Shown here one piece after another: positions 22,015 to 60,258 of a DNA stretch of 64,000 nt (positions are counted from its first letter, which is position 1; every line of letters begins with the position of its first letter). The translations under genes were made by a program, and so were the position numbers. The notes beneath the pieces were generated by a model. It was not told where the DNA came from. It was given only the letters and a program-made list of their open reading frames with translations, and did not search any database. The stretch is from the NCBI GenBank assembly GCA_030694265.1, contig JAUXYP010000002.1:248001-312000 (forward strand), read 5' to 3'. Origin of the DNA: Sulfuricurvum sp. Its GTDB lineage: Bacteria > Campylobacterota > Campylobacteria > Campylobacterales > Sulfurimonadaceae.

Positions 22015-22218
22015 TTAATTCATCGCCATCGTAATAAGTAAGTCATTTCCTTCTTCAATAACGGTAAAACGGTGTTTACGACAAAAAGTTTCATTCATCT
22101 CGTCTGCCCAATCATTTGCTTCTACTAATGCGTCGTCTTTGTTATCAAATGCTTTAACTGTTGGCATACCGCTGCGCTTGAAACAACCGCATTCTTTCTC
22201 TATACGTACATTGAACAT
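22015..22218 (-). CDS. Small conserved hypothetical protein
   Basis: 67 residues beginning MFNVRIEKECGCFKRS. GGGAG lies about 8 bases before ATG 22218, and an in-frame upstream codon gives only an untypical hydrophobic extension. It has two close cysteines (ECGCF) plus one later (TFCRKH) and a compact predicted alpha/beta pattern. I do not recognise the family; no function is proposed. Its stop is 9 bases from the convergent argF stop. Confidence 0.65.
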   Translation of the reverse strand: MFNVRIEKECGCFKRSGMPTVKAFDNKDDALVEANDWADEMNETFCRKHRFTVIEEGNDLLITMAMN

Positions 22219-22299
22219 AATAAGTTCTCCCTGATGTTTTTTGGCAGTATAGTGATTCAAAATTAAAAAAATAGTACAAATCATAAGCGAATAGAAACT

Positions 22300-22360: not shown

Positions 22361-22366
22361 TATAAT
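22361..22366 (+). promoter_or_regulatory. -10 box TATAAT of the structured helicase leader
   Basis: TATAAT in the context GTGGGTATAATTCGC, predicting a transcript start near 22373. No recognisable -35 box, which is usual for this phylum. Confidence 0.65.
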
Positions 22367-22372
22367 TCGCTC

Positions 22373-22575
22373 AAATTTTTGGGTACCTTCGTAAGTCTTC
22401 GCATTGGTCGAGGTTTTACAAAGGTACCTTCCATGGTAGAGATCGCAATATTATGATCTCTGAAAATTTTCTGCCCAATTGAGGGTCAAGATACAGCGTC
22501 ACGGCCGCACAGCGTAGCAACATGGGCTTTTTAGGAACCATCTTTTATGGAAAAGATGCGTAGTTCCTTTTTTTT
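22373..22575 (+). ncRNA. Structured leader RNA or independent small RNA ending in an intrinsic terminator
   Basis: About 200 bases between a TATAAT box and a terminator, upstream of the DEAD-box helicase gene, with no coding frame of note. Four consecutive elements can be drawn. (1) 22382-22428: GGTACCTT/GTAAG/CTTCG paired with CGAGG/TTTAC/AAGGTACC, 18 pairs with two symmetric 1x1 mismatches and a 7-base loop. (2) 22438-22461: AGAGATC/GATCTCT with a 10-base loop. (3) 22473-22527: GCCCA closing on TGGGC, enclosing a TTGA-ggg-TCAA mini-hairpin. (4) the terminator at 22534. It does not match 6S, SRP, tmRNA or RNase P RNA by eye. It is either an attenuation leader of the helicase mRNA or a separate sRNA. 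Confidence 0.65.
22534..22575 (+). terminator. Strong intrinsic terminator in front of the DEAD-box helicase gene
   Basis: GGAAC then CATCTTTT-atgg-AAAAGATG, a 4-base bulge (cgta), GTTCC, then eight T. Thirteen pairs plus a T-run, 31 bases before the helicase ATG. Any transcript from the 22361 promoter must pass it. Confidence 0.85.
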
Positions 22576-22606
22576 GCAGGCGTGGCGTATTAATTAAAGG
22601 TGAATT

Positions 22607-24280
22607 ATGAGTACAGTCGAAATTAAAGAAACAGAAGCAAACGTCGGAACATTCGCGGATTTTGGTCTTCGTAGCGAAATCATGCAAAGCATCACGCATG
22701 CTGGATTTACGGTTCCAAGCCCTATTCAATCAATGGTTATCCCCGTTATTATGCAAGGTCGCGACGTTGTAGGTCAAGCACACACAGGTACAGGTAAAAC
22801 AGCAGCATTTGGATTGCCGGCATTGAATAAAATGCATTTAAAGGGTGGAATCGAAGTTCTAATCGTTACACCAACGCGTGAACTTGCAAACCAAGTAAGT
22901 GACGAAATTTTTAAATACGGTAAGCACCTTGGTGTTCGTACAGTTACGATTTACGGTGGAAGTTCATACAGCCGTCAAGTAGATCTTATTGAGCGCGGCG
23001 CACAGGTTATTATCGCAACACCAGGTCGTTTACTTGATATGCTTAGCCGTAACATGCTCAAAGGTTTTGCTCCATCAACGGTTATTTTGGATGAAGCAGA
23101 TGAGATGTTGGATATGGGATTCTTGGATGATATCAATGAAATCTTTAGTTACCTTCCAACAGAGCGCCAAACATTGCTCTTTTCAGCAACAATGCCAATG
23201 CCTATCAAAAAGCTTGCAGAACGTATCTTGGTTGATCCATTTTTTGCGTCTATTACAAGAGAAGAGACTACGAATACAGATATTACACAACAGTACTACG
23301 TTATTGAAGAATCAGAGCGTGATGATGCCATCATCCGTTTGATGGATGCTGAAGATGCTAAAAAAACAGTGGTATTCTGTCGTACTAAAAAAGAGGTTGA
23401 CCGTCTTTCAAATGTCCTTTCAGCTGCTGGTTATTCAGCTAAAGGTCTTCATGGAGACATGGAGCAGCGTCAACGTGAAAGCGTTATCAAGGGTGTTAAA
23501 TCCGATGCATTTGATGTATTGATTGCAACAGACGTTGCAGCTCGTGGTTTACACATTGACGACATTACGCACGTATTCAACTACCATATTCCTTTTGACC
23601 CTGAAAGTTATGTACACCGTATCGGACGTACAGGACGTGCGGGTAAAAAAGGGGTTGCGATTACTTTGGTTACACCGATTGAATTTAAAGAACTTCAGCG
23701 CATTAAATCTAAAGTCGGTACAACGATGGAACATGCGTATATTCCAAGTAAGCTTGATGTAAAAGAAGCGCAAATCAACCGTTTGGTATCTGAAATTGAA
23801 AAGCAGCACGTTAATGATATCGCACACAAAGTATTGGATCTTCTAAAAGAAGATTTTGACCAAGAGCAGATTGCTTACAAATTGGTCTCTTTACTCATGG
23901 AGCGTAACATCGTTCAAGGACCGAATAATATCGGTATTTCTGCAGAGCGTATGGAAAAAATTCTTAGCAATCTTGCAAACAGTCATGACCGTGGCGGTAA
24001 TCGTGGCGGCGGATACCGTGGTAACCGCAGTGGTGGCGGCGGATACCGTGGTAACAATGATCGTAATGCTGGCGGCGGAGATCGTGGTGGCAGCACTGGC
24101 GGCGGATACCGTGGTAACAATGACCGTAATGCTGGGGGCGGAGATCGTGGTGCCAGTACAGGCGGCGGATACCGTGGTAACAATGATCGTAATGCTGGCG
24201 GTGCAGATCGCGGAGCAGGTGATCGTTCACGTAGCTTCAGCGGCCAAAACCGTTCAGATGGTAACAAGCCTAGAAGCTAA
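22607..24280 (+). CDS. deaD: DEAD-box ATP-dependent RNA helicase with RGG-like tail
   Basis: 557 residues. Unwinds RNA in ribosome assembly or mRNA turnover, often cold-induced. All helicase motifs are present: Q motif (GFTVPSPIQ), AHTGTGKT, PTRELANQ, TPGR, DEAD, SAT, ARGLHIDD and HRIGRTGR, over residues about 15-370. A helical dimer-like region follows to about 450, then a Gly/Arg/Asn tail of about 100 residues containing three 21-residue tandem repeats, expected to bind RNA. AAAGGTG precedes ATG. A structured leader with terminator lies upstream. The last 27 bp overlap the antisense HIT gene. Confidence 0.95.
   Translation: MSTVEIKETEANVGTFADFGLRSEIMQSITHAGFTVPSPIQSMVIPVIMQGRDVVGQAHTGTGKTAAFGLPALNKMHLKGGIEVLIVTPTRELANQVSDEIFKYGKHLGVRTVTIYGGSSYSRQVDLIERGAQVIIATPGRLLDMLSRNMLKGFAPSTVILDEADEMLDMGFLDDINEIFSYLPTERQTLLFSATMPMPIKKLAERILVDPFFASITREETTNTDITQQYYVIEESERDDAIIRLMDAEDAKKTVVFCRTKKEVDRLSNVLSAAGYSAKGLHGDMEQRQRESVIKGVKSDAFDVLIATDVAARGLHIDDITHVFNYHIPFDPESYVHRIGRTGRAGKKGVAITLVTPIEFKELQRIKSKVGTTMEHAYIPSKLDVKEAQINRLVSEIEKQHVNDIAHKVLDLLKEDFDQEQIAYKLVSLLMERNIVQGPNNIGISAERMEKILSNLANSHDRGGNRGGGYRGNRSGGGGYRGNNDRNAGGGDRGGSTGGGYRGNNDRNAGGGDRGASTGGGYRGNNDRNAGGADRGAGDRSRSFSGQNRSDGNKPRS
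24035..24223 (+). repeat. Three tandem 63-bp repeats in the helicase tail
   Basis: Units start at 24035, 24098 and 24161, each GGCGGCGGATACCGTGG..., encoding 21 residues (GGGYRGNNDRNAGG plus xDRGxxx). Identity is high at DNA level, so copy number may vary between strains by slippage or recombination. Confidence 0.88.
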
Positions 24281-29966: not shown

Positions 29967-31508
29967 TTGAAAAAATTAGCCATAATCGGCCGTCCAAATG
30001 TCGGCAAAAGCTCTCTCTTTAATCGTCTTTTGAAACAGCGTGATGCAATTACATCTGAAATCGCAGGTACTACGCGTGATGTAAAAAAACGGGTTGCTGT
30101 TGTAGTAGATAAAGAAGTTGAAATTCTGGATACCGGCGGTTTGGACGAAGGATGCGAACTTTTTGATCGTATCAAAGAAAAGTCGTTGGAAGCTGCACAT
30201 AAAGCGGACATAATATTATTTATGGTTGACGGTAAAAGTTTGCCTGAAGAAGATGATAAAAAGCTCTTTTATGAGCTAGAAGCGATGGGTAAATCAATTG
30301 CGTTGGTTGTTAACAAAATAGACAACGATAAAATGCAAGAAAAGCTTTGGGAATATTATGAGTTCGGGACAAACCGAATCTTCGGTATTTCAGTCGCGCA
30401 TAATCGTTCTATTTTACCTCTGCTCAATTGGATTGCTTCTGAGCTTCCTGAATCATCAATCGTAAAACCGGTTGAAGATATTGAGCAAGACGATGACGAT
30501 ATGGATGGATTTGATGCTGTTATCCGCGGATACAGTGATGAAGATGAAGAATTTGATGATGACGAAGATTCAGATGATGATGATCTGGACGACGATGAAG
30601 ATTCGGATGATGAACTTGACGATATTGCAGCTATGGAAGAAGCGTATCGCGGGATTGTCAAAGAATATGCTCCCGCAGATACACAGAAAATGAAAGTGGC
30701 AATCATCGGTCGTGTTAACGTCGGGAAAAGTTCGTTGCTCAATGCGCTTCTTAAAGAAGACCGTTCTGTGGTCAGTTCGGTTGCAGGTACGACGATTGAT
30801 CCTATTGACGAAACGATTGAGTATCAGGATAAAACCATTACCTTTATCGATACGGCGGGAATTCGTAAACGCGGTAAGATTTTGGGAATTGAAAAATATG
30901 CCTTGATGCGTACCGAAGAGATGCTGGAAACGGCTGACATTGCTTTATTGGTACTGGATGCATCGGTTCCGTTTATGGATTTGGATGAAAAAATTGCAGG
31001 GTTTGTTGATAAAAACCGTATGGCATGTTTGATTGTTCTCAATAAATGGGATATGGCTCCAAAAGAGGATTATGAGAAGATCATTGCCGATGTAAGAGAT
31101 CGATTTAAATTTTTGAGTTACGCCCCTATCGTCACTATTTCAGCGCAAAGCAAACAGCGTGTCCATAAGATTTTTGATATGTTGCTCAAAATTAATGAAA
31201 ATTATTCTCAGCGTATCTCAACGGGTAAACTCAATGAAGTAATCCAAACAGCGATGCGAAGACATATTCTGCCAAGCGTAAACGGTCAAAATATCCGTCT
31301 CTATTTTGCGACACAGTATGATATTCGTCCTCCGCGTATTGCATTGATTATGAATAAACCGCAAGGGCTTCACTTTAGTTATCGTCGTTATCTAACCAAC
31401 CGGCTTCGTGAGGAGTTCAACTTTGAAGGGACACCGATTCTTTTCAAAGCGAAAAGCAGAGGCGGAGATAAAAAACCACGAGCTCATAAAACAAGAGCTT
31501 TGTGGTAA
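29967..31508 (+). CDS. der: Ribosome-assembly GTPase Der/EngA with acidic linker insertion
   Basis: Two tandem GTPase domains acting in 50S subunit maturation. TTG start. Domain 1: GRPNVGKSS (8-16), DTGG (55-58), NKID. Domain 2: GRVNVGKSS (248-256), DTAGIRKRG, NKWD, then a KH-like domain with HFSYRRYLTNRLRE. The linker between the domains (residues about 171-220) is extremely acidic; 24 of residues 191-220 are Asp or Glu. Total 513 residues, somewhat longer than E. coli Der. The basic C-terminus (KSRGGDKKPRAHK) is typical. Confidence 0.97.
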   Translation: MKKLAIIGRPNVGKSSLFNRLLKQRDAITSEIAGTTRDVKKRVAVVVDKEVEILDTGGLDEGCELFDRIKEKSLEAAHKADIILFMVDGKSLPEEDDKKLFYELEAMGKSIALVVNKIDNDKMQEKLWEYYEFGTNRIFGISVAHNRSILPLLNWIASELPESSIVKPVEDIEQDDDDMDGFDAVIRGYSDEDEEFDDDEDSDDDDLDDDEDSDDELDDIAAMEEAYRGIVKEYAPADTQKMKVAIIGRVNVGKSSLLNALLKEDRSVVSSVAGTTIDPIDETIEYQDKTITFIDTAGIRKRGKILGIEKYALMRTEEMLETADIALLVLDASVPFMDLDEKIAGFVDKNRMACLIVLNKWDMAPKEDYEKIIADVRDRFKFLSYAPIVTISAQSKQRVHKIFDMLLKINENYSQRISTGKLNEVIQTAMRRHILPSVNGQNIRLYFATQYDIRPPRIALIMNKPQGLHFSYRRYLTNRLREEFNFEGTPILFKAKSRGGDKKPRAHKTRALW

Positions 31509-59223: not shown

Positions 59224-60258
59224 TTATCGTTCATAAAAAGAATTTTGTCTCTTGTGGGAGGTGAGTAGTGAGCCGTAGTTACCATTATGGTGGATTTTAT
59301 TAATTATCAAGTTCCCGATTACAGGTCTATAATGAACGGGATCATAAAAATTGGAAGGAGAGCGGTTTTCGGATGCATTGAGATCAAAATCATAAACTTT
59401 TCCAAAAATCTCAATTAAGTCATCACGAAATTTTTGTGATGCGGTTGCTAAAAGCGGATTAGAGTGCATCTCTACTTGAGCTTCATAAAAAGTTGGAGTA
59501 ATAAAGGGATAAAGTTTGATGTGATGCTGATCGCAAAGTTTTTTTATTTGTTTTAAGGGCTGCAGTGCTTTTGTTTCGTAAATAAAAGGATTTTGAATGA
59601 AATTTGCGTCGACGGCTTCTTTTGAAATCTCTTTGAAATGTTGATAGGAATGGTCAAAAGTTCCTGATTTAATGGCTTGTTCATCAAGATAATGGTTAAT
59701 TGAACCGTCTTCTTCAAAATACGATTGAGGTTGATGTTTCCAATAATTTACAAATGTTTTAAAACTGATTAGTAGTGTAGATGGTGAGAGATAGTTTCCT
59801 TCTGATGCATTTATAAATCCATGCGGATTGAGATGATTTGGACGTGTTTGTGTGTGAACATTATAGAGTTCATTACCAAGATATACTGTTTTAAGCGGCG
59901 CATGTTTTAGCCACTCTTGAAGGATAAAAAGCTTTTCTGGATTATTGGCCACATGGACGCCAAAGTTATAGCATTCTTTGGTGCTAATATCAGAAGAAGG
60001 AACTATTGACATTACTCGGGAGCTTCCCAAAATAACGCAGTCGTATTTTTGAATGTTGTTTTGATGAAAAACAGTATTGTATTTTTCACTTCGTTCATGA
60101 ATTATCGGTTTGTATTTTTTTTCTACAATCCAATTTCGGTTTCCGAAGGGGTCAATGGTAAAATTAATGCTAAAAATAGTTCCAATGCACAGGATAGCAA
60201 CTGTTATAAAAATTAATATCCATGGTATTGGAGCAATATTTGTTTTTAGTAAAGGCAT
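59224..60258 (-). CDS. Membrane-anchored SGNH-like protein D of the acylation cassette
   Basis: 344 residues. TM helix at about 12-32, then an exported domain with VILGSSRVMSIVP (Ser79/80, Arg81), TVYLGNELYNV, LYPFITPTFYE and block-V-like YDPVHYRPVIG (Asp306, His309). The spacing of motifs is the same as in A and C, yet the overall sequences differ strongly, so the paralogues are old or were recruited separately. It overlaps the upstream GT2 gene by one base and precedes the MBOAT gene. Confidence 0.72.
   Translation of the reverse strand: MPLLKTNIAPIPWILIFITVAILCIGTIFSINFTIDPFGNRNWIVEKKYKPIIHERSEKYNTVFHQNNIQKYDCVILGSSRVMSIVPSSDISTKECYNFGVHVANNPEKLFILQEWLKHAPLKTVYLGNELYNVHTQTRPNHLNPHGFINASEGNYLSPSTLLISFKTFVNYWKHQPQSYFEEDGSINHYLDEQAIKSGTFDHSYQHFKEISKEAVDANFIQNPFIYETKALQPLKQIKKLCDQHHIKLYPFITPTFYEAQVEMHSNPLLATASQKFRDDLIEIFGKVYDFDLNASENRSPSNFYDPVHYRPVIGNLIINKIHHNGNYGSLLTSHKRQNSFYER

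Follow-up and report, generated by a model that had tools for sequence, protein, structure and literature searches.

How bacteria set the levels of their RNA helicases is poorly known, and the locus described here raises the question of whether a helicase might gauge its concentration by remodelling the mRNA that encodes it. The window (the whole 64,000-nt stretch of Sulfuricurvum DNA that was analysed) encodes a 557-residue DEAD-box RNA helicase with a repetitive Arg/Gly-rich tail. The best NCBIfam model, CshA (NF053631), scored 493.5 bits, under its curated cut-off of 646, and the protein is therefore called CshA/CsdA-like. The preceding gene belongs to the aspartate/ornithine carbamoyltransferase family. 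On a named Sulfuricurvum contig (L134) there is a relative at 97% helicase identity. The tail of the window's helicase is encoded by near-identical tandem repeats (GGGYRGNNDRNAGGGDRG) at 24000–24250, and a divergent small reading frame of up to 89 residues, with no Pfam match, lies on the minus strand of the common intergenic region (22015–22284).

A folded leader upstream of the helicase gene

The −10 box and the helicase ATG are separated by about 235 nt of leader, which is folded and conserved. Two features bound it:

22361–22366, plus strand: −10 box TATAAT of the leader promoter, read in the sequence and kept in the genus alignment
22607–24280, plus strand: CshA/CsdA-like DEAD-box RNA helicase (Pfam DEAD and Helicase_C), the putatively controlled gene

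Transcription probably starts near 22372–22373. The preliminary description had listed the TATAAT box, a rod, hairpins, a hairpin followed by eight T and the ATG, and reading the sequence placed all of these correctly to within a base or two. It had also called the region gene-free and densely structured, and this held as well: the ORF check found no plausible gene between TATAAT and the helicase ATG (22361–22606), and the z-scores for folding were about −4.2 to −4.8. The leader folded at −78.4 kcal/mol, compared to a shuffled mean of −57.1 kcal/mol (z = −4.76), and none of 200 shuffles folded as low; starting from the likely transcription start, z was −4.23. Among 133 background segments of 240 nt from the window, each scored with only 20 shuffles, the mean z was −0.19 (sd 1.25), and none reached −4.76. 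Two other 240-nt segments were unusually stable, 60000–60240 (z = −4.3) and 30240–30480 (z = −3.7), again with 20 shuffles. The −10 context of the leader recurs in relatives upstream of an ilvC-like gene (named by eye from its sequence), and 35-nt DNA matches in other Sulfuricurvum genomes proved to be this shared −10 region rather than copies of the leader.

Two leader types across Sulfuricurvum

Leaders were collected by nucleotide search and then from the DNA upstream of helicase orthologues. Upstream DNA was readable for 38 Sulfuricurvum orthologues, and every one of them had a version of the leader; one additional orthologue (L037), which starts at a contig end, falls outside this count. 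The leaders are of two types. Type A, found in 22 genomes including that of the window, has AAAUUUUU, the rod, UUCCAUGGUA, a hairpin, GAAAAUUU and a small hairpin in its 5′ part, followed by ACGUCAC, UAGCAACAUGGGC, a terminator, GUGGCGUA and the Shine-Dalgarno sequence. Type B (16 genomes) consists of the rod, a differing linker and hairpin, AGCGUAACUGG, a hairpin with no U-tract, and UGGCGUAU, so that the 5′ domain is retained and the terminator is missing. Because the terminator is found in type A and not in type B, it is the output device of one lineage and not part of the core. On the helicase tree, one change suffices for each type; the placement of type B on one side of a branch has poor support, which leaves the ancestral type undecided.

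Covariance models of the 5′ domain (R1) and the 3′ domain (R2) were built from type A leaders only. R1 recovered every type B leader at full length (E = 1e-6 to 5e-4), which is independent support for the structure, and R2 recovered eight of them (E = 4e-4 to 8e-3). Compensatory changes in homologous leaders, whose absence would by the preliminary description have refuted its idea, exceeded those in every shuffle, and the idea withstood this check. In the 5′ domain, 94.7% of cells were paired and nine pairs had changed on both sides (shuffled mean 3.7; 0/500 shuffles as high), and in the 3′ domain 82.6% of cells were paired and 11 pairs had changed on both sides (shuffled mean 6.2; 0/500), in alignments that were fitted to the structure and whose kinship also inflates the pair counts. 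Slid controls gave lower counts than both domains. Because of this inflation, we also relied on unfitted RNAalifold predictions, which recovered P2, P5 and the 3′ hairpin of type B, with compensatory changes. Conserved structure with compensatory changes in front of orthologous genes is the mark of a cis-regulatory leader, and it is what these alignments contain. The folded leader is real and evolutionarily conserved.

The 5′ domain element is single-copy in its genome, and a DNA search of that genome, which bears on rRNA mimicry, found no second match. Among the genomes of the order that were searched, there was no convincing copy outside Sulfuricurvum, and the weak matches in other genomes were not upstream of this helicase. 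The window had no match in Rfam 15 at the gathering cut-off (best E = 4.4 in a laxer search), nor did any of 14 loci spanning several leader types. The motif is thus undescribed in Rfam and in the literature, the latter limited to an open library and hence weak evidence of novelty, while its kind is familiar: an mRNA leader controlling its own gene.

The 5′ domain

The features of the 5′ domain in the window are:

22373–22380, plus strand: 5′ strand of P1, AAAUUUUU, a proposed weak closing stem with partner 22462–22469 (alignment)
22381–22429, plus strand: P2, a long rod hairpin (pair counts on the alignment)
22430–22437, plus strand: unpaired linker between P2 and P3, inside UUCCAUGGUA, which is invariant in type A (invariant alignment columns)
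22438–22461, plus strand: P3, a hairpin of 7–9 bp (pair counts on the alignment)
22462–22469, plus strand: 3′ strand of P1, GAAAAUUU (alignment, pair counts)

P2 was paired in 100% of cells, with both-side changes at four pairs, and is present in type B too. P3 had both-side changes in five of its seven pairs, and its register is shifted by one nucleotide in some leaders. Together with P4 and P5 (below), these stems are well supported. P1 is only a possible closing stem of the domain, made of weak A-U pairs: its 5′ strand AAAUUUUU does not vary among the 21 type A leaders that were aligned and could pair in most of the rest, its stability is just −1 to −3 kcal/mol, and it has no both-side changes in type A. 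In one type A leader (L057, genome G151), extra sequence is inserted around P3, while the remainder of both domains is intact. Pairing of CCAUG (in UUCCAUGGUA) with CAUGG (in UAGCAACAUGGGC) as a pseudoknot was considered and set aside: neither strand varies in type A, which leaves no covariation to judge it by, and no counterpart was seen in type B.

The junction-like arrangement of this domain, its invariant linker, the conserved UAGCAACAUGGGC and the terminator that follows would all suit a metabolite riboswitch, with the 5′ domain as aptamer and the terminator as expression platform. We nevertheless consider a riboswitch improbable. Rfam, with its known aptamers, gave no match, the type A linker is not retained in type B, and none of the other genera searched has the domain; moreover, the sole controlled gene is a helicase and there is no conserved alternative pairing.

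The 3′ domain

Downstream of P1, the window contains:

22473–22486, plus strand: P4, a local hairpin GCCC-AAUUGA-GGGU, formed in 22/22 type A leaders
22496–22505, plus strand: 5′ strand of P5, which encloses the terminator, with partner 22580–22588 (pair counts)
22515–22527, plus strand: conserved UAGCAACAUGGGC immediately upstream of the terminator (type A alignment)
22533–22575, plus strand: terminator-like hairpin (22533–22567) followed by eight T (22568–22575) (folding, sequence)
22580–22588, plus strand: 3′ strand of P5, within GGCGUGGCGUAUU (pair counts)
22596–22600, plus strand: Shine-Dalgarno sequence AAAGG, predicted mostly open (folding prediction)

The long-range GCCCA/TGGGC stem proposed in the preliminary description is replaced by P4. 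TGGGC is invariant in type A, while GCCC covaries with a local partner a few nucleotides downstream in all 22 leaders, as GCCC/GGGU, GCCC/GGGC, GUCC/GGAC or GUCU/AGAC, with both-side changes in three of the four pairs. P5, which like the possible P1 had gone unrecorded before, was paired in 96.8% of cells, with both-side changes at three pairs, and UGGCGUAU at its 3′ strand is common to types A and B. Across the aligned type A leaders, UAGCAACAUGGGC differs by a single substitution (L033 has UAGUAACAUGGGC), and its exact sequence occurs nowhere else in the genome.

A short upstream reading frame could in principle control readthrough, starting either at the AUG in CCAUGG or at that in CAUGGGC and, in the latter case, running into the terminator. 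Both AUGs are invariant in type A, AAGG precedes the first, and 19/22 type A leaders encode MGFL(G/E)(N/T)I(F/P). The frames themselves, however, are not conserved: their lengths span 3–64 codons, there are early stops and a frameshift, and the indels in P3 are not multiples of three. Since the second AUG is also missing in type B and the Shine-Dalgarno sequence of the first sits within the rod, translation of such a frame is a very remote explanation.

The terminator hairpin in the window has a predicted stability of −10.7 kcal/mol. A U-rich tract (6–8 T within 8 nt) directly follows the stem in 20/22 type A leaders and in no type B leader; an intrinsic terminator between promoter and gene is thus found in type A and not in type B. 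Weak stems (−4.5 kcal/mol) occur in several of the type A terminators. The low per-pair counts of the outer stem result from its being shifted in some type A leaders relative to the window.

With its own promoter, dense structure, near-invariant motif at 22515–22527 and terminator, the stretch could instead encode an independent, trans-acting small RNA, about 200 nt long with its 3′ end at 22575, the helicase mRNA being accidental readthrough. This is distinctly unlikely: in type B the terminator is missing and the RNA is still joined to the gene, the genomes searched have the element upstream of this helicase only, and a conserved stem joins leader sequence before the terminator to sequence past it.

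Another unlikely reading, to which we give a little more weight, is that the hairpin is not a terminator at all and its U-tract incidental, the leader being a stability or degradosome-feedback element like the E. coli rne leader. A hairpin without a U-tract is present in type B and in two type A leaders, P5 forms in the full mRNA only, and feedback of helicase and RNase J on the rnj 5′ region has been reported in H. pylori (PMC5874925). The U-rich tract, kept right after the stem in 20 of the 22 type A leaders, argues against it.

The Shine-Dalgarno sequence had a predicted mean unpaired probability of 0.75 across types A and B at 25 °C, and the folding predictions revealed no masking in either type; type A is therefore suited to transcriptional rather than translational control. 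Among the Sulfuricurvum leaders, the 5′ arm of the terminator has no conserved upstream partner that could act as a mutually exclusive antiterminator, so that the TTCCAT/ATGGAA pairing suggested earlier as a switch finds no support. Because no antiterminator pairing is conserved, we favour a choice that does not come down to strands simply exchanging partners. It would rest with a protein, most obviously the helicase, or with temperature through its effect on a weak terminator.

A probable cis-acting attenuator

Probably the helicase mRNA begins with this stretch as its 5′ leader, which would work in cis as an attenuator. Transcription would begin just past TATAAT, and the RNA would form the 5′ domain (P2 and P3, perhaps closed by P1) and then P4. 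RNA polymerase would either halt at the hairpin and U-tract, with release of a short RNA some 200 nt long, or continue, in which case P5 may close around the terminator hairpin while the Shine-Dalgarno sequence stays free. The observations behind this reading are the conservation, the compensatory changes, the anatomy of the terminator and the attachment to one gene. Termination presumably occurs and readthrough would be regulated; judging from the identity of the controlled gene alone, the signal might be low temperature or the activity of the helicase itself. Helicase and RNase leaders reported elsewhere (PMC3485376, PMC5874925) suggest by analogy that negative feedback would be the most likely sign.

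Several points count against attenuation: the weak stems, the missing U-tract in 2/22 type A leaders, the lack of a conserved antiterminator, and the fact that P5 can form only after readthrough. Against a cold signal stands the report that the H. pylori helicase RhpA is not cold induced (PMC5874925). Of the attenuator leader envisaged in the preliminary description, the tie to the helicase stands, being genus-wide and found nowhere else; the terminator is confined to type A and is not core. Since type B has no terminator, termination-based attenuation cannot be the general device.

Leaders of the orthologue in other genera

Sulfurimonas-type orthologues, named Sulfurimonas records among them, have a different, short leader with the order AGGGGAAGGUGC, hairpin, CUUGUAUCAUCUCCUU, spacer and AAAGGAUAAUGAUGCAAG. 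It is about 70–80 nt long in L083–L113 (for example L101:58–140, minus strand). Two alternative partners are available to the CUUGUAUCAUCUCCUU strand, one upstream (98.6% of cells paired) and the other in the Shine-Dalgarno sequence and start codon region (93.7%), compared to 34–64% in slid controls; both-side changes were absent. The predicted openness of the Shine-Dalgarno sequence was 0.31, against 0.75 in Sulfuricurvum, and on these predictions the Sulfurimonas leader is a candidate translational switch.

In Sulfurospirillum (L144 and L146), the helicase leader has a hairpin AAAACCUACC...GUAGGUUUUU, possibly another terminator. In several other genera of the family (L071, L072 and L078), a long helicase-leader hairpin closed by GGACACCU/AGGUGUCC or similar ends beside the Shine-Dalgarno sequence.

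Leader structure thus recurs at the helicase gene, between genera in sequences that are not demonstrably homologous. A differing structured leader in Sulfurimonas is what would be expected if the gene repeatedly comes under leader control. Tentatively, and with more doubt than confidence, we suggest that the same helicase is under leader-RNA feedback in Sulfuricurvum and Sulfurimonas, that the helicase itself remodels the leader, and that the output device has been swapped between lineages (an intrinsic terminator in Sulfuricurvum type A, a terminator-less form in type B, a translational switch in Sulfurimonas).

Comparison with known systems

The E. coli deaD/csdA and cspA genes also have the long, structured 5′ UTRs of cold-shock and helicase genes, but control there involves Rho or mRNA thermosensing and is not known to use an intrinsic terminator of this form. 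In Synechocystis, the autoregulated DEAD-box helicase gene crhR changes its expression in response to cold and to the helicase it encodes (PMC3485376). The Sulfuricurvum gene may behave likewise; crhR differs in coming from an unrelated organism and in that the available part of that report describes no leader RNA motif. The vmlR leader attenuator of Bacillus subtilis similarly combines a structured leader with transcription attenuation, and a possible action of the helicase CshA on it is suggested by its authors (PMC9226507); the likeness is one of description, and vmlR is an antibiotic resistance factor. In the E. coli rne 5′ UTR and the H. pylori rnj feedback (PMC5874925), the leader of an RNA-decay gene serves as a feedback sensor, a likeness that is again by description, with a different gene and, in Sulfuricurvum, a terminator. 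In Campylobacterota, a transcript study of C. jejuni found the TPP riboswitch and no other metabolite riboswitch (PMC3847290), and the Sulfuricurvum leader would add a leader RNA to this group. Compact and conserved, with a structure model, a terminator, a natural terminator-less relative and a differently built counterpart in Sulfurimonas, it is directly testable.
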